From: Panopea generosa
Taxonomy: Eukaryota > Mollusca > Bivalvia > Adapedonta > Hiatellidae
Length of the DNA stretch: 64,000 nt
Reading direction: 5' to 3'
Assembly: GCA_029582155.1 (NCBI GenBank)
Contig: CM055905.1
Coordinates: 7,132,062 to 7,196,061, forward strand
Shown: piece after piece, positions 1 to 54,200 of the stretch
How the letters are laid out: each line of letters opens with the position of its first letter
Numbering within the stretch: position 1 is the stretch's first letter
The notes under the pieces: model-generated
Told to the model about the DNA's origin: nothing
What the model saw: the letters and a program-made list of their open reading frames with translations, nothing else
Databases searched by the model: none
Made by a program: the position numbers and the translations under genes

Positions 1-569
1 CGATACGTGGTTTTCGTCAATGAAGCCTGAAAATACCAAGAAACCCAATGTAAGACAAAGACATACGTCTAAATTAATGCGTTCACAGTACACCAGTGCT
101 TATAACTTTGATACAGCGAGTGCGTCTTGATTATTTCTTCTTCTGCAGCGACGCGTACATACACGAATATGTTTAAATATATTTGTTTCTAATTGACACC
201 AACTGGAAACACTCTATCGGGTATACGTCACATTTCCGTGAGTTTGTTTTAAATTGAACATTCTTGAACATTTAGAACAAAGATAATCATAAATGTATTT
301 TAAAATATATATTCTTAAGATAAACAGAGGGATCTTATGTCATTAATGTCCTCACTCCCATGCCGAAAAGACTATTTCACATCTAGATAAATTTCTGCTT
401 TAACATGTATGTATAGCCTGTAATATTATAATAAAGATTTATTGCTTTTAATACTGTTTATGAATATATCTACCTTACACTTAAACATTTTTAAACATAC
501 CCATATGTGTTGATCACAGAATAATAATATACAAGGTAACTGGTTATTTTTTTTTATTGTGTGTGTTTT
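1..569. other. Non-coding flank of the Ty3/gypsy element, possibly its 3' LTR
   Basis: No gene is visible. The stretch lies just beyond the 3' end of the minus-strand polymerase region, where a 3' LTR would sit. I compared it by eye with the region beyond the gag end (4881-5361) and found no matching direct repeat, so an LTR is not demonstrated. The sequence is AT-rich with no long open frame. Confidence 0.3.
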
Positions 570-657
570 ATAACCTTCATTAGGCTTAAGTTTGTTATGA
601 TGAACAACACTTTCATGACCATCACTACTGGGTTGAATTACAAAGTATAAATTTCCT

Positions 658-1291
658 TTATTGGATAAGGACCGTTTTCTCTAATTTTGGATTCACTCCA
701 ACTCTCCGCGTTTCATGTAGACACCAGACGATGTCTCCAATCTGGTAACGGTTAAAAGCTAATTTTACACTATAAATTTCCTTGCTTCGTTTAGCGCTTT
801 GTCCTATGTGCTTTCTGGAAACTTCATGTGTAAAAATCAACTTACTCCTTATATCTTGTTCCTTGTTTTTATGTCCATAAACCACTTCAGCTGGTAGTCT
901 AAACTCTCTAACCAAAGTCATGATATTTGGAGATAGTCGAGTTGTCTCATGATGTGTTGCTCTATAAGCTCCAGCAAGACAGCCTAGGTATAAGTCCCAA
1001 TTATCCTGCTCTCCAACTAGGTACGCTTTTAACATCTTTATTAATGTGCGGTTAAATCGCTCAGTATGCCCGTTACCTCTGAGGTTTCTAGCGCTGGTTC
1101 TTGATTTCCAGGAGTTTCCATAATTCTTGAAAAGTCCTACTTTCTAATGTTGTACGTTGGTCACTGTATATTGAGAGTGGTGAACCCCTGCGTGCCATGT
1201 ATTCATTCAGGATCTTCGATGCGCATTCTTCTGCCGACTGATTGGGAACCGCACTTACCTCAACATACTTTGAAAAGTGGTCAGTTAGCAC
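658..1291 (-). pseudogene. Integrase remnant of the Ty3/gypsy element
   Basis: There are two open pieces. 1291-1088 carries the integrase core around the second catalytic Asp, with DHFSKYVEVSAVP followed by an IYSDQ block (gypsy consensus IHSDQG). 1035-658 carries the following AYRATHHETTRLSPN segment and the start of the C-terminal domain. A frame change separates them, and the N-terminal HHCC zinc finger was not found intact. It is part of the element at 570-4880. Confidence 0.85.
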
Positions 1292-2144
1292 TAATATATA
1301 TCGGTTCCGTCGTTAAATATTTGGAAATGGTCCAATGAAGTCTATCGCTAGGCTATCTCATGGTGCGCCTGTCCTTAGACTGCCCATCGGGGCTTTCGAT
1401 GGCAATTTGTCAGCGGCACATACATCATTTCTTTACGTAAAAGCTTATGTCATGTTTCATATTGTACTAATTATATCTTGGGAAATCTTTTCCTTGGTTT
1501 TTTTAAATCCCATGTGCCCTGCTATTAGTGAATCATGCATTTGATATAACATTTCATGTTTTAGCTCACACAGCACTACTAGTGGATAATATTGATCTGT
1601 TCCGTTGACCTTCTTGAATATTTTACACAGGACTCTATCTTTCAGGTTCAGGGTGTCTCAAATTATCCAGTAGTGTCTGGTAGCAGGGCTCATGACATTT
1701 ATCTCTGCACTTGTAGGTTTTGTTTCATCTTGCAATGCCCTCACTATTGGTGCAATATCAGTGTCCTTCATCTGTATTTCCTTAATGGCTTCTGGAAAAT
1801 GAGTCAACCACCAACTTGGTTTTATATTCTGCATTGACTTCCTTTTTTATGGTCCTGCAACTGATTCAGGATTTAAGGTTACTGGCCGAGTTTGACAGAC
1901 ATCATCAATTGCTGTTTCCTTGTTAATGACGAGTACCATACTATCTACTCGTCTCTGACATTTTACAATGTCCGCACTTTAATGGTTCGCTCATGTCTAC
2001 CTCGGCACACGAACAATCTTTTGGGCTCGAACATCGAGATAAAGCATCACATTGAGTCTGTTTTGTCCCTGCACGATATTCGATGCAGAAATCATATTGA
2101 GCTAAAATTTCTATCCAGCGCGCTATCTTTTCACTTGGTTCTTT

Positions 2145-3104
2145 CTAACTGAATAACCAGACCAGGGCTTGATGGTCACTTCTCACAATAAACCGTCTAC
2201 CAAGAAGGTACTGCCTAAAATATTGGATGAAGTAGACAACAGCATGAAGCTCTTTTTCGGTGTAATTTTTTTCTGCTGTGTTCATCGCTCTGCTCGCATA
2301 TGCGATGACTCTTTCTCTCCCATGTTGAAATTGAGTTAGAACCGCCCCTGTTCCAACTCCCGATGCATCAACATCTAGATAGAAATCCTTACCGTTATTT
2401 AACGGATACCCCATTATGGCTGGACTTACCAGTATTTCTTTCAGCGTTTTGAACGTTTCTTCGCAAGTATCGTTTCAAATGAACTCTTTATCCTTTTTGG
2501 CGAGTTCATCAGTGGCCTTACTATTTTTGCAAAGTCCTTTACAAACCGTCTGTAGTATGATCCGGTTGCTACAAATTGCTTCACTTGTTTTGCGTTCTGT
2601 GGCCTAGGCCACTGCAATATTTTAGCGATGTTATTTGGATCTGGTTTTACTCCCTCGCTAGACACTACATGTCCAAACAACACAATTTCCGTTTGAAGCA
2701 TATTGCATTTTTCAGGCTTTAACTTGAGACCTGCTTGGTTAATTCTGTCAAACAATTGTGTCACTCTTTGTATGTGTTGGATGAAATCAACTCCGTACAC
2801 AATAATATCATCAATGTACACAAGCCATGTATCCCATTATAATCCTTGGAGAGCCAATTCCATTGTTCTTTGGAATGTGCTCGCGGTATTGTTTAAACCA
2901 AATGGCATTCGGTTCATCTCATAGTCCACAGAATGCACTGTTTAGTATGTCTCCTTTCTTAATGGAACCTGGAAGCACCCACTTGTTAATTAAGTCGAAA
3001 TTAATAAACAATGATGTTCCAGCAACTGCATCTAGACAATATTGTACGCGTGGTAGCGGAAAATCGTATGGTTTAACAAGTGCATTAACTCTTCGGTAAT
3101 CCAC
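2145..3104 (-). pseudogene. Reverse transcriptase and RNase H remnant of the Ty3/gypsy element
   Basis: Three open pieces together cover RT and RNase H. 3104-2919 has DYRRVNALVKPYDFPLPR and the first catalytic Asp in FINFDL. 2821-2441 starts at the YIDD box and runs through the thumb region (GLKLKPEKC, LFGHVVSSEGV). 2414-2145 is RNase H, with VDASGVGTGAVL, YTEKELHAVVYF and VRSDHQALVWL. The gaps between the pieces are frameshifts or stops, so no functional polymerase is encoded. Confidence 0.9.
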
Positions 3105-3137
3105 ATATGGTCGTGTAGATCCATTTTTTCTTCCAAA

Positions 3138-3909
3138 CTATAACAATGGGTGAAGCCCATGGTGAGGTACTTTTCGGTATAACCCTTTACTCAAAATATC
3201 TTTAATGGCCTTTTCTTCTTCTGCATACGCAAGAGATATTCGCCTAGGTCTCTGCTTGATGGGAGCAGCATTGCCAGTGTTGATGGGGTGTTCGGTTAGA
3301 TCTGTCAGTCCAATATCCCATTCGTTTCTCGAAAAAATATTCTGGTATTTTTTTAGCAAAGCAGCTACTTCAGATTTGCCAGCTGTCGATCTTTGGAACA
3401 ATGCTCCGAGATGCTCACGTAACTCTAGTGGATTGGCTTTTGCAAATGATGAAATATTGCTCACGTTCTCTTTAGCACTTGTATGTATTCTTCTAACTCG
3501 ATTACAATTTTGATTCTCTTCAGTGTCCTCTTGTTCAATCACTACACTTACTACTCTTTCTATTCTCTCTGCATTTCCTTTTTTCGGCCTCTTGCAATAA
3601 AACTATTTTTGAAGGAAATGGATTCAGAATTCGCACTTTACACGTTGCCGCGTTGCAAACATCTACAAATGTTAATGCCATTAGAAGCCTATAACTAGCT
3701 CTGAAGTTATCTGTAGGCTCCACTAGGTAATCTAATTTCTCATCATTATCGTCTTCCTCTACTCTCTCAACAAAGACATATACTAGTGCTTCCGTATTAA
3801 CCGGTATGCTTGTATTGTCCACCACCGTAACCTTTCGTACTTTTCTATTTCTAACCATTTGTATGCACGATATCTCGGAACCATCTAGAATGATTGTATT
3901 TTTACTCAA
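3138..3909 (-). pseudogene. Protease-RT linker region of the Ty3/gypsy element
   Basis: Two overlapping open pieces. 3909-3535 has the region downstream of the aspartic protease, with the LVEPTD and VRILNPFPS pattern common between PR and RT in gypsy elements. 3542-3138 leads into the N-terminal RT fingers (LLKKYQNIFSRNEWDIG, then HPINTG and PIKQRPRR). The protease active-site DTG triad was not seen. Confidence 0.75.
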
Positions 3910-4880
3910 ATGAATGTCCGCCGGCTACTTTTCACCTCCCTTCAGTATATTGTATCTCAAAATAGATCGTCCTCTATCTCAGCTACTAAAGCTTCCCTGA
4001 CAAGCTCTAGTCGTCATAACTTCAGTAAAAATATCGCTTTCCTTCTCTCTTTTACCAGGAAACTCTACCTTGATCTCTTTATTGCATTTTCTGGGCCTCT
4101 TCTATCTTCGTAAGCCGCTCTAATACCTGTGTCAACTTTTTTATTTGTTCCGTTACTATATCCTGTTCTTTGGTTAAATCGTATTTCTGTGAATGTGTAC
4201 TATGGTCACTGCCAATGTTAATTGGACATTTCTCATATTGGACCCGATTCCGTCTAGTACTATCGTACTCAGTTGATGTTTCGTCACAGTCCTCAAATTC
4301 TACCATTTACTGTTCTTCGGGTACTTCTTTTATTTTTTCTATCGTAGTCATCCCTATTGCTAGTTTGTACGAGTTTTACTACATGGAAAACCGCTTCATC
4401 AATATGCTCGGGTTCTTTGTGGTACTCTACTTCAAACAGTTCTTCATCATCTATGAGTCCACCTAGAAAAAGACGAACTAAATCTTCATCCTGTGTTCTG
4501 ATATCTCTGTAGCCATGACCTTCATCATACAACCGTTTTAGGTCAGCTACATATTCTTCTGCTGTTTCACCATGTCTTTGTAAACGTTTGCTAAATTATG
4601 CAGCAAATGAGCAGGCAGTCTCAATTACTCTTAATCTACTGTTTAGCTCCGATATTAACTCGCGATATTTAAATAACACCTCTGGTGGGAGTTTTGAAAA
4701 TACGAGTTGAGCTGCTTGACCTTCAAGTCGAGGCAGAAGTTGATTTATTTTGTTTTCATTACTCCACTGATATCGTAATGCTATCGCCTCAAATCTAGCA
4801 ATTTATACGGCCCTTTCTTCTTTTCCTACAAATGCTTGGTTTTTTACACCGCTCGAGGATGTGCTGCCTAAGAAGTCTAC

Positions 4881-5361: not shown

Positions 5362-5881
5362 GGATACGTGCATTCTTACAGCTAGTGCTCACAACTAGTT
5401 ATATATGTGCATTCTTACAGCTATGTGCATTCTTACAGGTACCGCTCACAACTAGTTGTATATGTGCATTCTTACAGCTAGTGCTCACAACTAGTTGTAT
5501 ATGTGCATTCTTACAGCTACCGCTCACAACTAGTTGTATATGTGCATTCTTACAGCTAGTGCTCACAACTAGTTGTATATTTGCATTCTTACAGCTACCG
5601 CTCACAACTAGTTGTATATGTGCATTCTTACAGCTAGTGTTCACAACTAGTTGTATATGTGCATTCATAAAGCTACCGCTCACAACTAGTTGTATATGTG
5701 CATTCTTACAGCTACCGCTCACAACTAATTGTATATGTGCATTCTTACAGCTAGTGCTCACAACTAGTTGTATATGTGAATTCGTACAGCTAGTGCTCCC
5801 GGCTAGTTGTATATGTGCATTCTTACAGCTACCGCTAACAACTAGTTGTATATGTGCATTCTTACAGCTACCGCTCACAAC
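5362..5881. repeat. 39-bp minisatellite (about 13 units)
   Basis: The tandem unit is 39 bp and contains the perfect 12-bp palindrome ACAACTAGTTGT followed by GTGCATTCTTACAGCTA. Units alternate fairly regularly between an ACCG and an AGTG variant at the junction. Because 39 is divisible by three and the unit lacks stops, open frames of 160-200 codons run through the array on both strands. Those frames are by-products of the repeat. It lies upstream of the first recognised monooxygenase exon. Confidence 0.95.
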
Positions 5882-6319: not shown

Positions 6320-9300
6320 GTGTGTATTAGTTGGTTTATTTGTTTTGCATCGTATTCTATAAAGAAGCATCTGGTAAGATTTGCTGAAATATAATTACAT
6401 AAAAAAAAATGCTAATACAAAACTTATACATTCCATTATTATTGGTATATACAACTACCAATCACTGCTCTACACGTCTCGTCTGAAATATTCTTTACTT
6501 CTCTTGAAATGATCATCTTGAGTTTATTAGTATCATCTGGAATTGGTGTGTACACTCTGTACACGTAGAGCAGTAACTGTAAACTTTACGAGTAGCATTA
6601 CAGATAAGGCTTATCACTTAGAACAACTTTTGCGAGATTTGTGTTTCTAGATAATAAGATGTACATGTTATGAGCACATGTAGGAATGGTATTTTGATAT
6701 AACACAATTTGAATGAATATTGTTTTATGTTGTTTTTTTTGTTAATTACAATGACAACAGGGTCCAACGGCATTCCAAACTTGGCAGAACTCATGAAAAT
6801 GTTCCAAAATTCTCGCATGTACAAAAAGATGTGACCATTTGAAGCATTTTCAACAAAAATAAAGCGCATTGTATCATTTTCACGTCCATGTGTATAAAAA
6901 AACTTCTATTTAAATTCTAAAGTATTTCTGCTCATAACAAATCCCTAAGAGTGGGTGATTGAAGTTCTAACAAATCATGGGGCTAGGTTGTATACGGGTT
7001 CTGTACGGGACTGTATTTTTGTTTACAGATGAATGGTATTGGAATTTAAAGTATTTCCTTTTCATAGCAATTAACTTTTTGTTCATTATGGTTATGATGG
7101 AGAGTATTTATTCAGAAGTTGTTAAGACGATCCCCGAAAGAGGGTAAATATTGTGAAATGTCAAAAAATGCTATGGCCACTATGAGCCAGTAGAGCGTCC
7201 TCTGGCCCTCTTGGGCTCTTGTTTAACTTTGACTTTACTTTTTAATGTCTGGTTCGCAAAACTAGTTTTGTTATGTCTCTTTTGGATAGGAATCATCAAT
7301 ATTGTTGTTACTATTGGAGTTTGTTGTTGATGATAATGATTTTGTAGTTATGACGGTGTTTGTGATACATTGTACTATAATATCATCACTTTAAAGTTTA
7401 TGTATCATTGGTAGTGGTGGTGATGATAATGATGTAGTGGTGACGGTGTTTGTGATACATTGTATTATTATGTCATCACATTGGTGACTAAGTTTCTTTT
7501 TAAGTAAAAAGCGATCATTTTACCCGTATGTAGAGATGGATGTGCTGGTTAAACTATAGTTTAAACATATTTTATTTCAACATGAAATGGGGTTGGGCCA
7601 CAAGTTCTTTCAACATTAGGTTCGGGTTAAACTGTCAGGATCCTCCCGGGAAAGAGTGATTAGGTAAACTGTTCGTCTTTTAGTCCTCGATGACAGATAT
7701 GACTGTTAATCAATCAAACCATCTTAGTTTCTTCAATCTTTTCCTATTGCAAATACCTGGTTTATACAGAGGCCTATACACATTAAGTTATGAACTCGTA
7801 ATTTTAATGATTGTCAAGAGTTTCAATAGTAAGTTTTTGATCTTCAGTTTACAACAATTGCTAATATATAATTTGGTAGGTCCATCATACAAGCAGAGTT
7901 TGCATTTCATTCATTATTTGGTACCTTCCAATGAAAAGTATCGTTTAAATTGAAACAATATATATTAGTGGCCATCAGGCGATAACAGCGTCGATAAATA
8001 CACATTCTCGCTGGACCGTACAGTATAAATTTGTCATATCAGAAATACACACAGCAGGGTGTAATTTGCGCTACGCAGCAAGTTTTATGGTTAGATGTAG
8101 CATAGCCTTTACATACTATATACATTGATATATCTTTTATAAATTTACTTATAAAATTATCGGAAAGGATATTGCACTAACACTTGTACTTATACACGAT
8201 TGGTTAGATTAAAATATACTAGTAAAATGTATGTTATCGTCTGCTATTGTTCAATTTATAGACCAACACTATACACGCTACATCGTCGTGTCTTTCATTC
8301 ATAAAATGCACACAATCAAACATTTCAATGGCGTAGTTATACATTCAACACAAGTATGTTATTTACATTTAACAGATTCTTTTTATACATTTGAAGCAAA
8401 CAACTGAATATTATTTTATTCAGGTATATAAACTAAGTTGTTTATTTGTAATTAAATATTGAATATTATGTACTTTTTGGGATTGCTTTGCACTATATCT
8501 TTGGTATGTTGGTACACTGAGTTATGAAATGTATACAGTTTATGACGCTGCCTGAGTTTTTCACATGTCAACTCTAGAGAGTTGCGTATGAAATGAGCTC
8601 CATTTCCAGTGTACAACATCCTTAACAGTCACCAAAAATACAAAACTGATAATAACCTGTGATACATCCACCTGATTAGTATTGGTATATAACACAGATG
8701 TGGGAATTATCGTTTGATACAGAACAAAATTTGAATGAATATTGTTAGATGTATGTTGGTATATTACAATGCTAACGTTATGTGTATCACTGGCGTTTTC
8801 GACATTGCTGACAGAATCGAAGTAAATTGTAAAATTGGTAAATATATAGAACATATAAAATTAGACAATAATCTCTTGTATATTATATGTAAAGACATTT
8901 CTTGTTTGGCTAATTTACTAATTTTTTTGCTATTTCTAGTTTATAGATGTGTTTAATTTCACCATTCGACTCCCAACAACGCCAGTCCCAGCAGAAGTAA
9001 CAACTTATACCTGCATGACGTTTGACTTTCCAACAGATGGTGATTACCATGCCATAGCCTTTACTCCGCACGTGGACAACACGGATGTGTTGCACCACAT
9101 TCTCCTATACGGCTGTCCTGATGCAGGTAGATGTTCGCACCACATTTTTCTATACTGCTGTAGTAATGCAGGTAGGTGGTCGCACCACATTCTCTTTTTC
9201 GGCTGTCCTGATGCAGGTAGGTGGTCGCACCATATTCTCCAACACCGCTGTCTTGATGCAGGTAGGTGGGCGCACCAAATTCTCCTATATAGCTGTGGTA

Positions 9301-12300
9301 ATGCAGGTAGGTGGTCTTATACAACGTCGGGTTATACTAACAAAACTTAGCCGAGGGTCTCGCCTGGAGGTAACACTTTATGTAAAATAATACAACAAAC
9401 TTAACTAGGTCACAAGTAACATTTCCGTCTTGAGACCAACGATACAGCGGAGTATGTTTGTTTCAACTTTAACATAGGTACCTATTTATTCAAAGAGTGT
9501 ATTTACACAACAACGGGGATAATCTGCCCCACCTTAAGTAGTGTAAACAAAGTTTATGAGAATAACCACGAAACTTGGTATATAAACCAAATAGTTAAAA
9601 GGGAATAAATCGAGATTTTTTTCCAATTTAGCATGCTTATTTATACCCACTGAACCCGTTTTGCCAAAAATAATATTTATTTAAACATGCCCAAAATTAT
9701 ATATTGAAAAGATATGTCCTACCTCTTACCTCGGTTAGACTACAATATATTTTCTACTGATGTGACGAATTAAATGAGTCACTTGGTTTCATTTTGATGT
9801 CAAATTGATCCGTTATACCGGTGTTTACATGTAAATAAAATTGTTTCATCTCTGACATTCTCGGTCCGAATGACGATGTAAAGTCGTTAAGCAGTAGTCA
9901 AGAGGTGTCTATTTTAAAAATGGGGATTTCGTTTTAAGTTAACCATTCCATCTTAAATATCGATTTGATGGATTTAAAGGACCAAACCATTTGAAATTTA
10001 TTTAATAATGATAATGAAATGCCTTTTATCCATATTTTTAAGGTATAAGCGTTTGTCCCTATAGACTCCATTTATCTCTGAACATTATTGTCAGAATTCG
10101 GTCTTGTCAATGGCAGCTTTGCACTGATCACAACAATGGTTTGGCAGATTTCTCGCTCGGCCAGTTGTATTTCCTTCTTCTCATACATCTACTTCTGTCG
10201 TGTGTCGGATTGACAGGTGCGAGATAGACTGTATAACGGACCCAGCTCCGATACATTTGAGCACGTTGATCGATAAGTTGTTTCAATGAAAGCTGGATGG
10301 CGTCACAGTTTTGTAAGTGTTCAATAGCTAGTGACTGTGGGACTGGCATAAAATCTTCTTTTTTCCATTAGGATTGAAAAGACCTGATTCGGGAGATATC
10401 GGGGAATGGGCTAAACTAGGTGGGGCAGCGCTCGAGAGCTTATTGGACAGATTTATGCGTATTGATTAAGAAACTGCAGTATGTTATAAGACATTCGAAC
10501 TGTTACACTCTGAATAAAACTTTAACATAATATTCATTCATAGATTTTGATGTCAGATTGATTTTTTTTATAATAACAACACAATCACATAAATGTGTGT
10601 TGATTTAAATTTGACCAGCAAAGCATACACGCTTATTACATTTTTTTTTTCAAGACAATAAGTATTATCATGCTAAATTAAACGTTTAAATTATAGCATA
10701 ACTAATAAATTATTTGCTAGATTCTCATCCATTTATTGTAAAAAGGGGGAGATTTTTTCATGAAAATAAAAAGCGTCGGGACAACATGGAAATTGGGAGG
10801 TGGGCGGGGATGATAATAAAGCAATTAATTTGTATGGCGTAATGGGTTTTAGGGAAATATTGTCTTTACACAGGATTAGATTTAACTATAAAGGTAGAAG
10901 TAGATATTAGTATGACTCGTTTCCCATTGTTATTATGCTATCTGTTTGCTCATTGTAATTTGTGACTAATGCATAATTAAAATGAACCCGTGACGTCTAC
11001 GGTTAATTTGGGATGAACCGAAATTGGCATATATCAAGGAAAAGCTTGTTCAATGCGTTATTTTCTTAAATGGTGATGGTTTGACAAAAACCTAACGTTA
11101 AAACATCTTGGTTTACGGTGTTTAGAATTATCGCCTGTTCTGTATGAGGCAAATCACAGTCTAAGAGCAATGTAGAATGCAAGTAACACAACGGCTGAGG
11201 CTTAATGAAACGAACAAGATAAGAGAAAAACTCGGTCTGGGTAACAAATAAATTGATGCTATAGAGTGCTGCATTATGCATGTTTTGAGCATCCAGTTGC
11301 AAAAAAGATCATCCATTATAAGACTGTATGTCAGAGTTTTATGTCCAGTGCTTCTATTTAAGATGCTGTAACACATGAGAAAGACAAGCCCTACGGTTGT
11401 TTCATGAACGTTGGCGATGGTTGCAATACGTTACTGTCGGCTTGGGGACTGGGGTCGGATGGAATATGTTTACCTCCGAATGCGGGCCTCAGGATAGGCG
11501 CAGGAATAAAAGTTGGCCTGATTCAGGTCAGGGTTTCTACTAGCTGTAATAACACATCATTTTGTGCTTAAAAATAAAAGAAAAATGAAAATGGGGGAAA
11601 GGGTGTAAATATAAAAGAATAACTGTATTTGTTATATAATAAAGTATTTTTGCGTTATTAAAACAATCAATACGTTAACAAAAGTAGGTGACATTATTTT
11701 TTCTTTTAGTTTAAACGTATTTACCCGTATATTCATAGTGATAACAAAACTGGTGAACAATAATAGAAAAAGAATAAGAACGAAGGCTAATGAAATTCTT
11801 CTAGAATTAAAATGATGTATTGGCTTCAAAAAGACCAAGCGCTCATCAATGTCTGGTAACAGTCCGTCAAGTTAAGCCAAGAACACCACACAGCCACAAT
11901 AATATTAAATACACCATTCCTCGTACATCGTTACTGTGACTTCAGTGGACACACTGTTTAGTGAGCCTTCGGTAGAGATAGGTTTTTTAAATCTATTTAG
12001 ACATATATATCTAAAAACTTCCTTAGACATGTTATCATAGAATAATCACTCCTGCAACAACGCCCGTTAATGTAAGCCGTTATTTGCGTGTGGGCACATA
12101 TCTGTTTAACCCACGTTCAAACCTGTCCGTAACAATTGTAACCTGTATATTAAGTCTACGATCGAATCAATAAATAAACAAATATCTAACACGGTATTTT
12201 ATACAATGACTTTAATTTTTTGACATAATGATTGAAAGAAATGGTAGACTATACTTAGATTATTCAAGTTCTATGTTTAAAAAGTACACAACTCCCTGGC

Positions 12301-18300: not shown

Positions 18301-21300
18301 CTTCAATGGTTAATTTTTGTGTTTTTAACTTTAATATTTTATTTTACAACTATTTTGAAATAAGTTCCTAAAACAAAATTCCACACAAAGCCTTCCTGTC
18401 AGCCACTACAATTCGAGCAAATTTTCAAAATTACCGATGACGTTTTTCGGAATTTCAATACCTTCTGTTGAAATGTCGAAAACATCAAACCACCTATCCA
18501 TTCTGTTGAATATTCTAATTGCGTTTTTAACAACACACGATGTTGAATTGACATCATTAACTGTAACGGAAAAGTCACACTGTCGGCTTACTTACCGGTA
18601 GCCATTTTAACTTGTTGATAACCGAATGCGCCTTATTGGCGGAATGAAAAAGAACTATACCGGAACGTATATATATATACGGGAATGGACACATTGGCGC
18701 CGATTTTAGCTAGAAAAAAGATTTTATAACGTTGGTTCTATAAAAAAATATGTTTTGGGTAATTTTAGCGAGTCGGTCGAAGCACAGCTAACATTCATTT
18801 TTTACTGAATGATGGTCCTACAGATGTCTTAGATTATCTCATCACATTTGACTTAACAATGCCGTAAGCTACCTCTTAAATATCCAAAATGATTATCAAT
18901 AACGCAGTTTATTGTAAAATCAACCATCTCAACAGAGAAATCAGTGAAGCGGCGATGTGCTAGCCAAGTGGATATTGTTGGTCGCTCACGCCAGAGGTCG
19001 TGGGTTCAATCCAATGACCCAGTAATAGTAATTCAGTAATAGTTATGCCCAAATACCTTAATAAAATGGGAACCGAATCAGCTCTGAGCTTACTTCGAAA
19101 TAGAGCTAAAACGAATTCATATAAACCAGTCGTCTGCACCAGTAGTATATATAGTATAATTAAAGTGGCCGATATGTTTTTCGATCTTAGCAATAAAACT
19201 TCATATTTTTATCAAACATTATATATCATGGTTATTCTGTACAATAACTTATGTTGTATTTTGTCTCTGAAGTGTACAATTATTTAATTTTGTTGACCAA
19301 ATATTAAATCGCGACCCACGATAAAGTCACTCAATGGCCAATATTGGGTTATGCTAAAACACTGACAAATAAAACGGAAAATGTCGACCTGTATATTAAC
19401 GAATTTCTCATCTTCAAGGATAGACTCAACCATTTTATTGGAATGTGATTTAATCCTCTTTGTGATTTAATAAAATTTCCATTATTTACTGAACAGAAAG
19501 TAATAGGTGATGCATCTTTAAAACGGTTACATGAAAATGTTGAAATCGATTTTTCTCATGTACTCGAATCCATATTTACACTATAAACGTTTTACCTAAT
19601 ATTATTGTCTGATTTTTTAGTAAGTATCAAATTTAACTAAAACTTGTGACGTCACGCTCATTTGGGGAATATAATGTTAATAAATAAAATACATTTTTTC
19701 TAGAATGTTTCTTAATGTCAAAACGATAATAAAATATGGAGATATTAAAATATATATTACTCTTTTTGTTGTAAATGACCACGAATCTGCGAAAACGGAT
19801 GCGTCCAAGCATTTTTGTAATAATGCCCCTTTGCGGTATAGAAACGAAATTGAATAGGTCTGAATAATCTTAATTCTATATATGCAGCATGAGAAAATAT
19901 ATCATATTTTACAAGAATAATGTTGAGGGAAAATCGTGAAAATCCGAATTAGGAACTATCCTTCATAAAATGTAATTTTACATTCCAGGCACACTGGAAT
20001 AATCCAATTCTAGCCGAAAATACAACGGACAGTTCCGGAATTAACATATATCTGACATCTAAATTACGACCATTCGATGCAGGTATGCTGATGTATGGGC
20101 AAACTCTGTTGCAGATTCCCCCCGGTGAGAATCATTTCTCGGTGGAAGGGAAATGTGGATCCGTGTGTTCGCATCTTATTATGAATGGATCCGTAAACAT
20201 ATTCGGGGCTACCAATCACATGCATTATTTAGGTCAGTATATTTTACGTAACATTCCCGGGTCTGCAGAACTCTTCCAATTATATAAGATTCGTTATTCA
20301 TTGTATACCATCGAGTGTTTAACACTCTGAACGCTGATCCCTTTGATTGCAGAACCCTGTCAGTTATGTACAGTTCAGCCCGTCTTAAGCAGCCAATCAA
20401 ATCAAAGATCAATAGTGGCATTTTAAGGCAGGTTGCTAAATGCAAGTTAATATGCTCTGAGAGCATAAAAATGGAAAATAGCAAATGTTGCTGCTTAAGA
20501 CAAGTGACTGATTAATATAGGCTTCCGCTTACACATATTTGAACGTTTCACACACCAATTAATTTTGTACTGTTCTACAAATAGAGACATGCACTTCTTG
20601 AACACTGGATACATTACAAATGGTTCTAAAAGTGCCTTATTCCCATAGATAGTCCTCTGTTGGTCCAATTATGTTTTTTGACAATTTCGATGGTTTGATG
20701 GCACCCCTTCATTTTTTGACAATTCTGCCCATTTGTTGCAGTGTATCACTACGCATATTTAAACTGTGATAACATCATCAAACAATTCCCAATGTCACTC
20801 AAACTTTGCAGAAATCATGAAAATGTTGTAATGTTCCCATATGCACAAAGAAATGTGACATTTTATGTACTTTTAACAAACAAATTGCCGAACCGCTTTA
20901 CACAGCTCTAATTTCTTAGGCGTAAGAATCTCGCTACCGTCATGTATGGAAGGTAATTCTTCAGTGAGAATTAGACAGTTTATGTAAAAGTTCATCGTAT
21001 GTCATGTTTGGCACTCTGATCCCCGGTGCTGCAGAACTAATTAAAACTAACTTCGATTCCCGGGTCTGCAAACCCCTCCGGATTACCTATATATGATACA
21101 AATCTCGCTGTTCATTATTTACCATCGTTTGTTGAGCATCCGCTGAAACCTTCGATATATCTATACATGTATATGATAAAAATCTCGCTGTTCGTCGTTT
21201 ACACGGTGCCGAATCCACATGATATCATGTTATGGAGCGGTGTAAAAACACGGAGGAAAAGTGCCTGCTTCAGCTAACATTTTTGCAAATAACTTTATAT

Positions 21301-24300
21301 TTCATGAAAATACATTAAACATAGTTCTATCAGGTTGCCATGCCCATCTTGTATTTTTGCAAAAAAGTGCAACTGCTTATTTTGCCCATTTGAAAATGTT
21401 ATGGTAGGGAGTGGTGCAACTGACAAAAATACGATCATGGCCACTTGGTAGCAAATTTCTAAAATTCAGATATATGGGTTACTGTTATAATGACTAAAAT
21501 GACAGTTCCCTTTTCTGAAATATATATCGTTTTAGATATATACTTGGCACGAAAAGAGGTTTTATTTGATGGATTAAATGTGAAACTCTTTATTAACAAA
21601 AATATACAGCGGTAGTCCGGTTATTTCTGGATCATCCCTTTGTTTGCAAAAATACAAACAGACATATAACTGTAAACGTCAAATCTTTTATATCAATAAA
21701 AAATGGCGTATCAATAATATAGTAGGTACTTCACCTCACATATTAATAAATAACCTTATGATTACAGTATTAACTACTTATCTTTCGTTACATAAACATT
21801 AAAGAGATGAAATGCCTCTAGTGTTTAAAATACAAATAGTAATATCTTTCTAAAGAAGGCAGTAACGCGAGTTCGGTTCTTGTTTACATTACTATCGTCT
21901 GTCGGGACCAGTGATCGCATGTAACACTATCGTGCTCCAACTTTGCTCACAATGTTATTTCTGAATAAGGCATTATATAGAGTTTACTGGCGGTTCGTTT
22001 TATTTTTTTATAAAAATTCGAAAAAGAATATTCTCAAAAATCGACAGTAACGTTAAATATTTCGATTTTTATCGTGCATGTTTGCTTTTACATAACCGTG
22101 GTCGTGGTCTATTTATCTGTCGGGCTTCTGATCTATATTATTGGCTAATCGTACTTGTAATTATTTTGAAATGAATTCACTTGACATTTATTTCAAGGCA
22201 CCTGCGCTTTGTCTTCGCTTGTAAAACCAAAAAGAGTACAGAACCTCGCCTTTGATGAAAAGTTTAGCTATGACAGACCAATTCTACACATGTAAGGTCA
22301 TCCATTTAGAAATTTAAAATGCAATATTAGGCCTATGTCAGATAATCGATTCGATATGTACAGAATTATAGTCAAGAGCAAACCTCGAATCTGGTAGGTA
22401 AATAAAAAAGTAGTGAGTTTATATGTAGGACTATCTTTTTTCTTCCAGAAATCAATGTAATGATGATACTGTTGCGGTTTGCAAATCCATTTCCTCAGGT
22501 CATCTGTACAAAGGTAACAGCTCCTAGAAAACATCTAGACATAGTCTTAACGATATGCAACGGCTATAACCAAGAAACAATAAAATACTACCATTAAAAA
22601 ACACATAAAAGTGGGAAAAGCAGCTCCGGAATTTCCCATTTTATCAGTTGTTCTTTTTACAAACTTGCCATATCTGCATTGAAACTCATACAAATTAGAG
22701 AAAAAGTTATAAAACGGATATCTTTGATAAATCGTAATTTACCTCAAAATTTACTAAGACTATAGGCACATTATTCCTACCATAATATGATTTGCCTAAC
22801 CATAAACTTCTATATAGTACAGCTAACTTCCGGAAAAGGGCATGGCTTGTGCAACCTATGATTAGCAATCTGCAACATTTACTGTTGTTATGTACATATG
22901 TATATATACTTTTTATGTCACTTTTAACTTTGTTTTTATTACTTCTAGCTTTGACAAAGAGGCAATAATGGATCCCGGAGATGAATAAAAGATCACGTGT
23001 CAATTCAAATCGGCATCAAGGACAATGACCACGCATTTTGGCCAAGGAACCGATGACGAAATGTGCCTAGGATTTATCTTCTACTATCCACAGGATAGCT
23101 TTTTGGCAACAGGTAAGTGGACGAAGGTGTATATATATTTCTGTTTTCGAACATACAGACCTTGATATACGTTCTCTCTGTTCGATTGTATTAGTGCTTA
23201 TTATATCTCAGAAAAAACGATATTTAATATATTTTATGAAATGCTTTATATTTGCACATTTTGAACAGCCCATGATGTCGTGCTTTCAAATGACATGTTT
23301 AAACTCGCACAACAGTGACGTGACGTGACGTATGGCGGTTTTAGTCCAACAGCAGCTTTTACGTGACGTATGACGGTTATAGTCCAGCAGCAGCATTGAC
23401 GTGACGTATGACGGTTATAGTCCAACAGCAGCCTTGACGTGACGTATGACGGTTATAGTCCAACAGCAGCCTTGACGTGACGTATGACGGTTATAGTCCA
23501 ACAGCAGCCTTGACGTGACGTATGACGGTTATAGTCCAACAGCAGCCTTGACGTGACGTATGACGGTTATAGTCCAACAGCAGCCTTGACGTGACGTATG
23601 ACGGTTATAGTTCAACAGCAGCCTTGACGTGACGTTTGATGGTTACAGTCCAACAGCAGCCTTGACATGACGTATGACGGTTATAGTCCAACAGCAGCCT
23701 TGACGTGACGTGTGGCGGTTGTAGTCATCAGTCCTTACAATGAACAACAAATCAGAGACGGAAAGAAAATGAAAAAAAATACAATGGAAGAACTTGATAA
23801 TTGATTTGTTCATTAAACTTAGACTAGATGCCTTTATCCTGAAGCAGGAATTACTCGACTGGAATAATCATTAAACTCCATATTATTAGTCTGAGTGAAG
23901 CTAAGCTTTTCCCATGGACAGGGCAGGTCTTCTGTTGTCCGTCTGTACGTTAATATGTTTTCAATTTATTTCTAAGAAACCACTAAAGAAATTGTTATGA
24001 ATGAGTTATTTCAGACTGTACGTCATACGGTGATATCGGCTCCTGCGAATGGGATCAGCCATTGATTCAAGGATGTGACTTGGAAACGTTTTCAAACTTT
24101 TCGTAAGTAGTCGCTATGCTGTATTAAGTTCCGGCGAACTTTTATGGTAAAAGTGTAAATTGATGCTTTACTATTTACTGTTGTTCGGGGTACATGTTTC
24201 ATTCAAAAGTTATTGATTTTAATTTTATTTAGGACTTATTTTCTCTGTATTCCCTTGATTTAATGTAGGGAAAACAAGTTCTGTTTCAGTTAAATATTGT

Positions 24301-45271: not shown

Positions 45272-48200
45272 CTGTAATGGAATAAGATTATTTTTATATT
45301 TATCAACAATTTAAAAATGAGTTTTAAAACTAGACTAGCAGTCTTTCTGCAAAAAAATACTGATTTTTTTATGTATATATTGTATTTAGCACAATTTCAC
45401 AACTTGATTGTATTTGTAATAATAACAAACTTTTCTCAAATGTTTTTTAGAAGTCTCGCCATTGTTATTATTATTATTTCTGGTCAATTGAATTTAGGAA
45501 TGAACTTGATCTTAGTGATGTGTAAAGACAATGATGTGTAAAGACAGTGATGTGTACAAATGTGATGTAATCAGATGGTGATGTATACAGATAGTGATAT
45601 GTACAGACAGTGATGTGTACAAATGTGATGTAATCAGATGGTGATGTATACAAATAGTGATGTGTACAGACAGTGATGTGTACAAATGTGATGTAATCAG
45701 ATGGTGATGTATACAGATGGTGATGTGTACATACAGTGATGTGTACAAATGTGATGTAATCAGATGGTGATGTATACTGATAGTGATGTGTGCAGACAGT
45801 GATGTGTACAAATGTGATGTATACAGATGGTGATGTGTACAGACAGTGATGTGTACAGATGTGATGTAATCAGAAAGTGATGTATATAGATGGTAATGTA
45901 TACAAATAGTGATGTGTACAGACAGCGTGTGTACAGATGGTGATGTAATCAGATGGTGATGTATACAGATAGTGATGTGTACAGATAGTGATGTGTACAT
46001 GCAGTGATGTATATAGATAGTGATGTGTTAAGATGGTTATGTATACAGATAGTGATGTATACAGGCAGTGATGTGTACAGATGGTAATGTGTACAGATAG
46101 TGATGTGAACAGATGGTTATGTATACAGTTAGTGATGTATACAGGCAGTGATGTGTACAGATGGTGATGTATACAGACGGTGATGTAAACAGGCAGTGAT
46201 GTGTACAGATAGTGATGTATACGGGCTGTGATGTATACAGATAGTGATGTGTACAGATGGTGATGTATACAGATAGTGATGTGTACAGAAAGTGATGTGT
46301 AGAGGATGTGATGTGTACAGACACTGATGTGTACAGACAGTGATGTATATATATATGGTGATGTATACAGACAGTGTTGTGCACAGATAGTGATGAATAC
46401 ATATAGTGATGTATACAGATAGTGATGTATACATATGCTGATGTATACAGACATTGATGTATATATATATTTATATATATATGGTGATGTATACAGACAG
46501 TGATGTGTACAGATAATGATGTAAACAGACTGTGATGTGTACAGACAGTGATGTATGATGTATACAGACAGTGATGTATACAGACAGCGATGTGTACAGA
46601 CAGTGGTATGTACGGACAGTGATGTGTACAGACAGTGATGTGTACATACATTGATGTTTACAGACAGTGATGTATACAGACAGCGATGTGTACAGACAGT
46701 GGTATGTACAGACAGTGATATATGATGTATACAGATAGTGATGTATACAGACAGTGATGTGTACAGACAGTGATGTATACAGACAGCAATGTGTACAGAC
46801 AGTTGTATGTACAGACAGTGATGTATGATGTATACAGACAGTGATGTGTTCAGACAGTGGTATGTAAAGACAGTAATGTGTACAGACAGTGATGTGTGCA
46901 GACATTGATGTATACAGACAGTGATGTATACAGACAGTGATGTATACAGACAGTGATGTATACAGACAGTAATGTGTACAGACAGTGGTATGTACATACA
47001 GTGATGTGTACAGACAGTAATGTGTACAGACAGTGATGTGTACAGACATTGATGTATACAGACAGTGATGTATACAGACAGTGATGTGTACCGACAGTGA
47101 TGTGTACAGGCAGTGATGTATGATGTATACAGACAGTGATGCGTACAGACAGTGATGTATGATGTATACACACAGTGATGTATACAGACAGTGATGTGTA
47201 CAGACAGTGATGTGTACAGACATTGATGTATACAGACAGTGATGTATACAGACAGTGATGTGTACAGACAGTGATGTGTACAGGCAGTGATGTATGATGT
47301 ATACCGACAGTGATGTATACAGACAGTAATGTGTACACACAGTGATGAATACAGACAGTGATGTATACAGACAGTGATGTATACAGACAGTGATGTGTGA
47401 TGTATCAAAACAGTGATGTGTGCAGACAGTGATGTGTGATGTATTATGCAGTCAGTGATGTGTACAGACAGTGATGTGTGGTGTATACAGACAGTGATGT
47501 ATGGTGTATACAGACAGTGATGTGTACAGACAGTGATGTGTAAAGACATTGATGTGTACAGACAGTGATGTATGATGTATACAGACAGTGATGTATACCG
47601 ACAGCGATGTGTACAGACAGTGGTATGTACAGACAGTAATGTGTACAGACAGTGATGTGGTCTGAAATTGATGTGTACAGACAGTGATGTATGATGTATA
47701 CAGACAGTGATGTATACAGACAGCGATGTGTACAGACAGCGGTATGTACAGAAAGTGATGTATACAGACAGTGATGTGTACATACAATGATGTTTACAGA
47801 CAGTGATGTATACAGACAGTGATGTGTACAGACAGTGATGTATGATGTATACAGACAGTGATGTATACAGACAGTGATGTATACAGACAGTGATGTGTAC
47901 AGACAGTGATGTATACAGACAGCAATGTGTACAGACAGTTGTATGTACAGACAGTGATGTATGATGTATACAGACAGTGGTGTGTACAGACAGTGATGTA
48001 TACAGACAGTGATGTGTTCAGACAGTGGTATGTACAGACAGTAATGTGTACAGACAGTGATGTGTGCAGACATTGATGTGTACAGACAGTGATGTATACA
48101 GACAGTGATGTATACAGACAGTGGTATGTACAGACAGTGATGTGTACATACAGTGATGTATGATGTATACAGACAGTGATGCGTACAGACAGTGATGTGT

Positions 48201-51200
48201 ACAGACAATGATGTATGATGTATACAGACAGTGATGTATACAGACAGTGATGTGTACAGACAGTGATGTGTACAGACATTGATGTATACAGACAGTGATG
48301 TATACAGACAGTGATGTGTACAGACAGTGATGTGTACAGGCAGTAATGTATGATGTATACAGACAGTGATGTGTACAGACAGTGATGTGTACAGGCAGTG
48401 ATGTATGATGTATACAGACAGTGATGCGTACAGACAGTGATGTGTACAGACAGTGATGTATGATGTATACAAACAGTGATGTATACAGACAGTGATGTGT
48501 ATAGACAGTGATGTATGATGTATACAGACAGTGATGTGTAGAGACAGTGATGTGTACCGACAGTGATGTATGATGTATACAGACAGTGATGTATACAGAC
48601 AGTGATATGTACAGACAGTGATGTGTACTGACAGTGATTTATGATGTTTACCGACAGTGATGTATACAGACAGTAATGTGTACAGACAGTGATGAATACA
48701 GACAGTGATGTATGATGTATACAGACAGTGATGTATACAGACAGTGATGTATACAGACAGTGATATGTGATGTATCAAATCAGTGATGTGTGCAGACAGT
48801 GATGTATTATGCAGTCAGCGATGTGTACAGACAGTGATGTATGGTGTATACAGACAGTGATTTGTACAGACAGTGATATGTACAGACATTGATGTGTACA
48901 GACAGTGATGTATGATGTATACTGACAGAGATGTGTACAGACAGTGGTATGTACAGACAGTGATGTGTACTGACAGGGATTTATGATGTATACCGACAGT
49001 GATGTATACCGACAGTGATGTGGTCAGAAATTGATGTGTACACACAGTGATGTATGATGTATACAGACAGTGATGTATACAGACAGTGGTATGTACAGAC
49101 AGTGATGTGTACAGACAATGATGTGTACATACATTGATGTTTACAGACAGTGATGTATACAGACAGCGATGTGTACAGACAGTGGTATGTACAGACAGTG
49201 ATGTATTATGTATACAGACAGTGATGTATACAGACAGTGATGTGTACAGACAGTGATGTATACAGACAGTAATGTGTACAGACAGTTGTATGTACAAACA
49301 GTGATGTATGATGTATACAGACAGTGATGTGTTCAGACAGTGGTATGTAAAGACAGTAATCTGTACAGACAGTGATGTGTGCAGACATTGATGTATACAG
49401 ACAGTGATGTATACAGACAGTAATGTGTACAGACAGTGGTATGTACAGACAGTGATGTGTACAGACAGTAATGTGTACAGACAGTGATGTGTACAGACAT
49501 TGATGTATACAGACAGTGATGTATACAGACAGTGATGTGTACAGACAGTGATGTGTACAGGCAGTGATATATGATGTATACAGACAGTGATGCGTACAGA
49601 CAGTGATGTATGATGTATACACACAGTGATGTATACAGACAGTGATGAGTACAGACAGTGATGTGTACAGACACTGATGTATACAGACAGTGATGTATAC
49701 AGACAGTGATGTGTACAGACAGTGATGTGTACAGGCAGTGATGTATGATGTATACTGACAGTGATGTACACAGACAGTAATGTGTACAGACAGTGATGAA
49801 TACAGACAGTGATGTATGATGTATACAGACAATGATGTGTGATGTATCAAAACAGTGATGTGTGCAGACAGTGATGTGTGATGTATTATGCAGTCAGTGA
49901 TGTGTACAGACAGTGATGTATGGTGTATACAGACAGTGATGTGTACAGACAGTGATGTGTAAAGACATTGATGTGTACAGACAGTGATGTATGATGTATA
50001 CAGACAGTGATGTATACCGACAGCGATGTGTACAGACAGTGGTATGTACAGACAGTAATGTGTACAGACAGTGATGTGGTCAGAAATTGATGTGTACAAA
50101 CAGTGATGTATGATGTATACAAACAGTGATGTATACAGACAGCGATGTGTACAGACAGTGGTATAAACAGACAGTTATGTATGATGTATACAGACAATGA
50201 TGTATACAGACAGTGATGTGTACAGACAGTGATGTATACAGACAGCAATGTGTACAGACAGTGGTATGTACAGACAGTAATGTATACAGACAGTGATGTG
50301 TACTGACAGTGGTTTGTACAGACAGTTATGTATGATGTATACAGACAGTGATGTGTACAGACAGTGATGTATACAGACAGCAATTGTACAGACAGTGGTA
50401 TGTACAGACAGTGATGTATGATGTATACAGACAGTGATGTGTACAGACAGTGATGTATACAGACAGTGATGTGTACAGACAGTGGTATGCACAGACAGTA
50501 ATGTGTACAGACAGTGATGTGTACAGACAGTGATGTAAACAGACAGTGATGTGTACAGACAGTGGTATGTACAGACAGATGTATGATGTATACAGACAGT
50601 GATTTATACAGACAGTGATGTGTACAGACAGTGGTATGTACAGACAGTAATGTATACAGACAGTAATGTATACAGACAGCGATGTATACTTACAGTGGTA
50701 TGTATAGACAGTTATGTATGATGTATACAGACAGTGATGTATACAGACAGTGATGTGTATAGACAGTGATGTATACAGACAGCAATGTGTACAGACAGTG
50801 GCATGTACAGACAGTGATATATAATGAATACATGCAGTGATGTTTACAGACAGTGATGTATACAGACAGTGATGTTTACAGACAGTGATGTGTACAGACA
50901 GTAGAATGCACAGACAGTAATGTGTACAGACAGTGATGTGTACAGACAGTTATGTGTACAGACAGTGGTATGTACAGACAGTGATGTGTACAGACAGTGA
51001 TGTATGATGTATATAGACAGTAATGTGTACAGACAGTGATGTTTGATGTATACAGACAGTGGTATGTACAGACAGTGATGTGTAGACAGTGATGTGTACA
51101 GACAGTGATGTACGATGTATACAGACAGTGATGTATGATGTATACAGACAGTGATGTATACAGACAGTTGTTTGTACAGACAGTAATGTGTGATGAGTAC

Positions 51201-54200
51201 AGACAGTGGTATGTACAGACAGTAATGTGTACAGACAGTGATGTATGATGTATACAGACAGTGATGTTTACAGACAGTGATATGTACAGACAGTGGTATG
51301 TACAGACAGTGGTATTTACAGACAGTAATGTGTAGCCATTTGTTAGATATAATATTTTGTTTTAATACAATTACAGCAACAGTGTATATGCGAATTGTAA
51401 AAATAATATTGATGATTATAGAAACATTCTCTCAGTAATTTATTTATACCAATATACAATTGTTTTGAAGCTTGACTGCACTACCACTCTCTAGTCTGTA
51501 TCCTTTGTAGAGACAGTACATGGTATTGGTTATGTGGGGATGTTTTCACAAACCAGATACCAACTGCATGACCTTGGGCACAAGCGGCCAATACCCTAGC
51601 AACTGCAATATCACCAAATACACGATCTTGGTGATTAACTATTAAACAATGAATTATGACTTACCTACAGCACTGGTAGAGTGGTGCCAAAATTGATCTT
51701 TCATCTATATGAGGATTGCCAAAACTGAAACAAAAACATGAACACTTATCTAGAACAGTTAGAAGTGTTTCTGTGTAGAAGCTGTACTAAGCATATGCTG
51801 ACAGAGTGTCTTCTTGCTCACGGTTACAACACATAGCCGTGGTGAAGGATCGAACCTCCAACCCTGGGTCTGGTGCTCTACCCCTGGATCACGCGCTCCA
51901 CATATAGAATAATGTTATTTTGATATGTCAAACTATTTGGTAAAATATAATCTTGATCATTTCTTGGTTAAATGAGTTAACAAAGATTCGCTGTATGTTC
52001 ACATGTGACCTAAATAAACAAATAACCAAATTAGGACAGTTGGCGAGTAGGTTTATTAAACATGCAAATACAATGTGTAGGCACAGTTGTAGGGAGGTCC
52101 AGGGCTAAGGTCTTCCAAAATAAAATCAGCTATAATGTGCATTTTGGTGTATATTATGTTTTTAGAGGCCTGGTTATCCTTAATATATTAACATTGATTT
52201 CAATTTCTTATAACCAAGTATATTGATATCAAATGTAATGTTTGTTCACTTTAATAAAGGGAAAATGAAGAGGCCTTCCTAATGGTCAGATTATTATTGC
52301 ATTTTGGCATTTTTATTTTTTTGATTTCTCAGAAAAAAAGTGGAGGCACATGGCTATAGGAAGCTACATCCCTGATAATATAAAGCAAGATCAAACTGGT
52401 TGTTAGATCAAATTAAGTTCATAATTATTTCCTTATATTCCCAACCAATCTACCATAATAAAAGAGCGACAATTGATGAGTGACCAATTATTTTAACTTG
52501 TGCGATGATAATTGTTATGAAGAATCGGATTATTATCTTGACGATGAGAAGTGTATACAGACAAGGAATGAGAGATTGTTCTATAGTCCCTTGATACAGG
52601 GCAATGTGCCGAGAAAAGTTGATTAAAGAATAATGAAAAAAAAAATGATAATAAACTTGTTTTTTTTTATTATTATGTTTTTATATAAAAAATAGTCAAA
52701 ACTATTTTGCCAGTGACTCACCCAAAAAAAAAATTCGGGACAGCTTCAGTATAATATGACAGAGTGGGGTATCATACCATATGTCTTTGGCATGATACTC
52801 TAGTGTGACCATGCTTAGAATTCTGACTCAAGTAGACACCATCGAAATATGACTGAAAACTTGTTGAAAGCAACACTAAACAACATACAACAACAACATT
52901 ATTAACAACAGAAGTTATTTGTATTGGCTCAGTTCATATTGGCCAAGTATCATTAAAATTTACCCAGTTTGTGTGTAACAAGGTAAGCATGTTCCTTGAA
53001 GACAATGGAGTGAATTAATAATTACTATACCTCAAGTACTTGTCCATGTTAAATTCACAGAGATAATCATGTGTTAACTATAGGCAGGGTTATAGTTTTA
53101 TTTACCAACACATGCATAAAAAAGATGTACATTTTGATACTACATGTATCACAAAAGCAGGAAAAATGCACATTTAGTTATTTTTCAATTCTTGTTGATC
53201 TTTAATTGCATATAATTGGACAGGTATCATTTTATTTACTATCATTTGCTTAGAAAAGATGTGTGCTTTGTTTGAATACCAAATGATAGGGTTTCAGTAT
53301 AATAAAATAAATATCCCATTCATAAGGCCTTCAAAAACGATAATCAACCTCAGTTTGGCACGATTAGCTAAGTCATTAGCCCGCCCGACTATCAATCCAG
53401 GGCTTGTGAGTTCAAATCCCCACTCAGCCACAGTCTCCATGATAAGTGATATAAAACATTGCGTCTCATTACCATTCATCTCTCACCGCTGATACAAGTG
53501 CGAAAGTTATCAGTTACTTGTGGAGATAGGGGTGCTCGAGTACCGTTTAACCTTTCCAGGATCCCAAGAAACAGTGGTTAGGTTAACTGATTATCTGTTA
53601 GCATTCCATGGCATAAAAATGACGCTAAATATTCAAACAAACAAACAAACAGTTTGGCCTCAGAGATAATCTCTTGCTCAGAATGAACATAATTACCATC
53701 CCTCTCCTATGAATCTTATAAATTAGAACTTTCCAGTAAACTCCCCTACTGTCTGTATGACAGTATGATCAAATATTGATTTTGAGAAAAAAAAAACGAA
53801 TCGAAAAAATCGCAATTTTAGAAGCCCTCGTAATAACATAGTAATAATTTTACACTCAAACTGATTTGGCAAACCTTTTGGCATTATCCATTATCAACAC
53901 AGTTGAATTATTAATGTTTTTATCCTTGGCATAGTTGTGTCTGTCAGCATTACTGATGAGGTAATCTAGGATGGACATGTCAACAAGATCCAGTAGTTCT
54001 CTCCCTTTGCTGTACTTGGTATTCTTCATAATGGTGCTGTTGCAGTAGTTCTCGTCACTTTGCCATCTGTGAATGCAAGTGACATAGTGATTAATAATTG
54101 ATTATCAAATTACTTTGAACAAGAAAAACTGATGAGGAAAAATTAGATGTGTGTTAATAGGCAATTTAAATAAAATCAGCAGAAAACTGAAATGATCAAA

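Follow-up and report, generated by a model that had tools for sequence, protein, structure and literature searches.

A 45-bp minisatellite spanning the 5' splice site of a copper type II monooxygenase-like exon in Panopea generosa

Results

The window analyzed here is a stretch of 64,000 nucleotides from the 1.47-Gb Panopea generosa genome (C12:7132062-7196061). On its plus strand, it carries exons of a copper type II ascorbate-dependent monooxygenase-like gene, a relative of PHM and DBH. At the end of one of these exons, here called exon B, lies a 45-bp minisatellite whose unit spans the exon-intron boundary and copies the 5' splice site (donor). An earlier note on this DNA proposed that the array might generate isoforms of copy-number-dependent length, or extra metal-binding loops, beside the CuH copper site.

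A gene of this family is expected to encode both PF01082 and PF03712, and both were found. The frame 8940-9350, which contains exon B (8947..9126) and the His-His of CuH, matches PF01082 with E 4.4e-12. This match continues in exon C (11363..11526), which has its acceptor AG at 11361-11362 and a donor after 11526. Alone, 11362-11526 scores 22.6 bits, under the cut-off of 30, while exons B and C joined score 71.2 bits. The joined exons match solved PHM and DBH chains, and in both displayed alignments, each to a PHM structure, HHILLYGC stands opposite HHMLLFGC, in agreement with the earlier reading of His-His-x4-Gly-Cys as the ligand block of DBH and PHM enzymes. Exon boundaries were placed from consensus signals and phase, by which exon B would be in phase 1 at both ends and exon C in phase 1 at its acceptor. 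PF03712 is matched further on by an open frame whose exon bears QAHW and HMH (19953..20330; E 9.7e-07, 28.8 bits) and by one holding a C-terminal exon that bears EMC (22989..23165; E 8.6e-09); a longer match at the EMC exon, C12:7155011-7155229, has two stops inside. We take QAHW to be the third CuH ligand position, HMH to belong to CuM, and EMC to be the CuM methionine region. With these roles assumed, the HH, QAHW, HMH and EMC segments are readable in separate frames, each exon being considered by itself rather than as part of one joined transcript. Across the genome, a loose cut-off gave 50 matches to PF01082 (39 on C12) and 52 to PF03712 (42 on C12), which are exon matches and not genes.

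Tandem arrays were identified with Tandem Repeats Finder (TRF). The array at exon B occupies 9092..9316 on the plus strand (5.0 copies, 80% matches, 0% indels, score 289), and its unit consists of the 35 final bases of exon B followed by the 10 initial bases of the intron (GTAGGTGGTC). The exonic part of unit 1 (9092..9126) runs up to the exon's own donor, CAG|GTAGAT, and is followed by four extra copies (9127..9306), each running up to a donor CAG|GTAGGT. Copied 5' splice sites (CAG|GTAG) thus stand after 9126, 9171, 9216, 9261 and 9306, and all share one phase. If the donor at 9126 is used, the four extra copies would be intronic; use of the distal donors would add 15, 30, 45 or 60 residues. 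That all of these donors would join exon C correctly, as had been proposed, is supported by the fitting acceptor ahead of that exon and by the continuation of PF01082 within it. The five periods had also been described as exact, which holds for their spacing and not for their sequence, as all five units differ from one another. Similarly, a His-His-like pair, a cysteine and a CAG|GTAGG-type donor had been assigned to every unit. The cysteine is indeed present in 5/5 units, but His-His is found in 4/5 (unit 5 has His-Gln) and Gly-Cys is gone from three, leaving the full His-His-x4-Gly-Cys intact in 2/5, and the donor type fits the four copies but not the first donor.

A length-variable minisatellite is expected to differ in copy number between loci or alleles. 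In a DNA search, a second copy of the locus came up on C18. Its array comprises 11.0 copies with a 90-bp higher order, as against five units on C12, so that the suggestion that copy number may vary is borne out. Compared unit by unit, the C18 array equals the five units of the window plus three 90-bp dimers, barring point differences, and the frame through it runs for 232 residues with no internal stop. The likeness between the two loci spans window positions -1061 to 34680, where the fetched DNA ended, in blocks that are 93.8-99.3% identical (counting blocks of at least 400 bp), and a further piece of C18 matches 56164-62201 at 96.6-99.1%. Either a segmental duplication or a separately placed second haplotype could account for the C18 locus. 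Exon B shows no differences between the two copies in 183 bp (8944-9126), whereas 8301-8946, just upstream, shows 18 in 646 bp. This contrast is moderate, because exon C differs at 3 of 165 bp and the remaining compared stretches at 0.1 to 2.3%. About 0.9 kb of the window (818-1701) is lacking in the C18 copy.

An array that encodes protein is expected to keep an open frame and to show coding constraint among its units. The period is a multiple of three, the phase is constant, and the frame is open from exon B to a stop ending at 9350, all as the earlier note had stated. However, a stop-free array of this period is weak evidence for coding, because open units are common: the consensus unit is stop-free in 4/6 frames, random 45-bp segments of the window have on average 2.5 of six frames open (5000 draws), and when the same 35 exon bases were followed by GT and 8 random window bases, the coding frame was open in 80% of 20000 draws. 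Given these expectations, the lack of a stop weighs little; a period that is a multiple of three together with an open frame has a chance of about 1/3 x 0.8, or about a quarter of such units. As a repeat, the array is beyond chance; as an in-frame coding design, it is not shown to be. To assess constraint, distinct variants were placed singly on the consensus unit in the coding frame. The 21 variants of the window units comprise 6 synonymous, 15 non-synonymous and 0 stop changes (5.3, 14.8 and 0.9 expected), and those of the window and C18 units together comprise 7, 17 and 1 (6.3, 17.6 and 1.1 expected). No coding constraint between units was detected among these 21-25 variants, which are too few to exclude weak constraint. 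The changes between units look like those of unselected copies. A separate 39-bp array at 5422-5881 lies in an open frame of 208 residues on one strand and in one of 166 on the other, and its unit holds the acceptor-like TTCTTACAG; Pfam gave no match for the 208-residue frame.

The strength of a donor can be approximated by its pairing with U1, for which we calculated the best duplex, without a fixed register, with what we take to be the U1 5' end. Exon B's own donor pairs at -8.0 kcal/mol and each of the four window copies at -12.9 kcal/mol. In-frame distal splicing, and with it a series of length isoforms, is possible, because U1 pairing is weaker at the own donor than at the four copies. 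A weak proximal donor followed by stronger in-frame donors is the best argument for such isoforms. It is nevertheless not conclusive, because the single donors of six other paralogous loci, located by hand among 22 loci (L022, a seventh, yielded no match), range from -4.7 to at most -10.7 kcal/mol. The 11 donors on C18 include four weak ones with GTAGA, five strong ones, and two that lack CAG (CAT and CCG; -6.3 and -10.1 kcal/mol).

Recurrence of donor-spanning arrays was first assessed at related exons. Loci were fetched for 30 of the 50 PF01082 matches, and 22 of the exon-B kind were retained, some of them near-identical pairs (L007, L008, L014, L016, L024, L029, L030 and L036 were left out; for L021 and L035, in which His-His was not located, the end of the match was used instead). 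A donor-spanning array was found at three of the 22: the window gene, its C18 copy, and a paralogue near C12:30901395. None was found at the other 19 exon-B loci of this genome, and the array is therefore not general to copper type II monooxygenases; at three of these 19 (L010, L025 and L035), an array begins 77, 211 and 263 bp further on. The paralogue (L026/L037/L038, minus strand, about C12:30901395) has an independent array of 48 bp at the same exon end, with 32 regular units counted from the donor. The TRF values of 35.4 copies and 2% indels reflect a far end that is irregular and contains stops. From the methionine before His-His, 534 residues can be read in frame without a stop, and the acceptor of the putative exon C would lie 1884 bp from the donor. 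Its variants comprise 7 non-synonymous and 4 synonymous changes (8.1 and 2.4 expected), too few to call. Its proximal donor pairs at -6.4 kcal/mol and none is stronger, with 15/32 (itself included) at the same value and 17/32 weaker.

Two further observations concern the paralogous loci. L012 has a 31-bp, 3-copy repeat (1405-1497) with TTTCAG right before the start of exon B, an acceptor-side counterpart of the arrays described above. In addition, near-identical pairs of monooxygenase exons (L018/L019, L031/L032 and L033/L034, judged by eye) lie about 0.9 Mb apart, at C12:32.8-32.9 Mb and 33.7-33.8 Mb, which suggests further duplication or a retained haplotype.

Recurrence at unrelated exons was assessed with a genome scan for paired donors, from which 30 loci were fetched, the first on C1, giving eight distinct arrays; three exons were put to Pfam. 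Two of the eight arrays span the donor of a recognizable exon, one starts about 28 bp past the donor of an ADH_N exon, and at four no exon is recognizable by eye; the eighth (L069) fills its own locus and is not judgeable. The first of the two crosses the donor (VEVK|GTAAGT) of an I-set immunoglobulin (Ig) exon (L045, C1:12285518; Pfam E 3e-10), in steps of 33, 33, 34, 34, 33, 34, 34 and 34 bp. The second is a 26-bp array of 23 copies directly past an ABC-ATPase-like exon (L042, C1:9514414; PF00005 E 0.0013, below the cut-off), which reads to us like ABCE1. Its repeated motif is the donor CAT|GTGAGT, merely about 5 exon bases are repeated, and its steps are mostly 26 bp, about double where a unit is altered, with a first step of 35. 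Frame keeping seems not to be required for donor-spanning arrays (n=4), because the 26-bp and the mixed 33/34-bp arrays exist. The idea of a frame filter, by which only arrays with a period that is a multiple of three survive, is weakened by the same two arrays, although four are too few for a test.

Pairs of MAGGTRAGT 18-48 bp apart number 3912 + 4363 in the genome, compared with 1372 + 1093 for the reversed pattern (3.4-fold), and pairs of CAGGTAGGT number 447 + 706, compared with 290 + 277. We did not accept this excess as proof that donors are specially enriched in arrays, because pairs and not arrays were counted, with large arrays counted many times, because a 51-bp unit recurs in several places, and because true donors would be expected to raise the background. 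Places were listed for the first pairs on C1 (MAGGTRAGT) and on C1-C2 (CAGGTAGGT); the 51-bp repeat was met at several of those listed for MAGGTRAGT and has donor-like sites on both strands.

Discussion

The array is probably a neutral, length-variable minisatellite that arose across an exon-intron boundary; the surrounding stretch is rich in repeats, with 19% of the window in tandem arrays of a period of at least 10 bp. A 45-bp segment reaching from the last bases of exon B into the intron would have been duplicated in tandem, after which slippage or unequal exchange would have expanded or contracted the array, each unit carrying a potential 5' splice site. The copies would mostly be spliced out as intron, with the extra donors as tolerated bystanders, and the period divisible by three would be due to chance or at most to a permissive filter. 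Distal donors might also be used in part, which would lengthen the loop after the CuH His-His, but the explanation does not need this. The anatomy of the unit, the copy-number difference between two loci, the neutral-like variants and the recurrence of such arrays are consistent with this origin. Several observations nevertheless weigh against it. The own donor is the weakest of the five, the reverse of what is expected if it alone mattered. Donor columns vary less than the others, both among the window units (1/9 versus 15/36) and when the C18 units are added (3/9 versus 16/36), and GT is retained in 5/5 window, 11/11 C18 and 32/32 paralogue donors. Furthermore, both independent monooxygenase arrays combine a period that is a multiple of three with regular units free of stops, and the Ig-exon array starts with two 33-bp steps.

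In the isoform explanation of the earlier note, the distal donors would be used, inserting 15 residues per unit into the loop that runs from the CuH His-His to the following cysteines, so that copy number would set the length of the protein. With no G at +5, the proximal donor pairs less well than 4/4 window copies, the period is a multiple of three, the frame stays open to 9350, and the insertion would fall close to a place where the alignment with PHM differs by 4 residues in length. However, the units show no detectable coding constraint, just 2/5 retain His-His-x4-Gly-Cys, two of the 11 C18 donors are degraded, and donor-spanning arrays elsewhere have a period of 26 bp or one shifting between 33 and 34 bp. 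On balance, we regard this explanation as unlikely, while giving it some weight. A broader version may be slightly harder still to sustain: 5' splice sites would repeatedly seed minisatellites in this genome, those in two monooxygenase paralogues would have become stop-free, frame-keeping banks of donors, and in the window gene these would have replaced a weakened proximal donor, yielding copy-number-dependent insertions by the copper site.

The remaining explanations are far less probable. Each unit has a stretch ahead of CAG|GT that is, by eye, fairly pyrimidine-rich, and its CAG could act as an acceptor and its GT as a donor, so that AGGT-bearing copies would permit intron gain, splicing between units or stepwise (recursive) splicing; the units carry no signal of selection, and we give this little credence. 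Even less can be said for the units as extra metal-binding repeats with selected His-His and cysteine residues. Although cysteine is present in all window units and His-His in most, variant counts fit the neutral expectation, unit 5 has lost its second histidine and three units their Gly-Cys, and the copied residues are a small part of the fold, the other ligands lying, by the roles we assume, in other exons. The earlier suggestion of extra metal-binding loops is accordingly not upheld, as the motif decays between units whose changes are free of visible constraint. Finally, one of the C12 and C18 copies could be a misplaced haplotype and the unit number a choice of the assembly. The C18 block identities are equally compatible with a recent duplication and with the second haplotype of a heterozygous animal. 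Even so, such a copy would represent a genuine allele of 11 units, and the independent 48-bp array needs no such explanation; we consider an artefact the least probable of all.

Minisatellites placed across a splice site have been described before. Human CBS has a variable number tandem repeat (VNTR), presumably located at exon 13/intron 13. Named c.1444_1467+7(16_21), it has a 31-bp unit comprising 24 nt of exon end and 7 nt of intron start, and its copy number is polymorphic (PMC2630376). It is like the window array in that the unit spans the donor and copy number varies. It differs in that its period of 31 is not a multiple of three and in that its variation is documented in populations, compared with two loci of one assembly here. 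In genes of human segmental duplications, variable internal tandem repeats at exon-intron boundaries are reported to generate alternative splicing (PMC2812944). These are likewise boundary minisatellites that differ between near-identical duplicated loci, but they are described as forming novel introns, with transcript support, whereas the window array is known from DNA alone. A tandem duplication across an intron-exon boundary of a potato RNA-dependent RNA polymerase gene also copied splice signals, and a new intron was detected (PMC4974935); this was one duplication, in contrast to an array of 5 or 11 units at a donor. The anatomy of a donor-spanning array is thus already in print for CBS, and the window case resembles known cases and is ordinary.

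Donor-copying arrays offer a natural test of donor choice, since near-identical sites stand at a fixed spacing in a copy number that differs between loci. Several such arrays apparently exist in this genome, with periods that are and are not multiples of three, which allows limits that the reading frame may set on their survival to be asked about.

Other features of the window

On the minus strand, positions 420-4800 hold frames like those of a long terminal repeat retrotransposon, split over several frames, in which we presume reverse transcriptase- and integrase-like stretches from their motifs. A 5.8-kb array with a 16/32-bp unit occupies 45514-51334 and has a strong GC skew, of 0.25 to 0.43 in three 2-kb bins.

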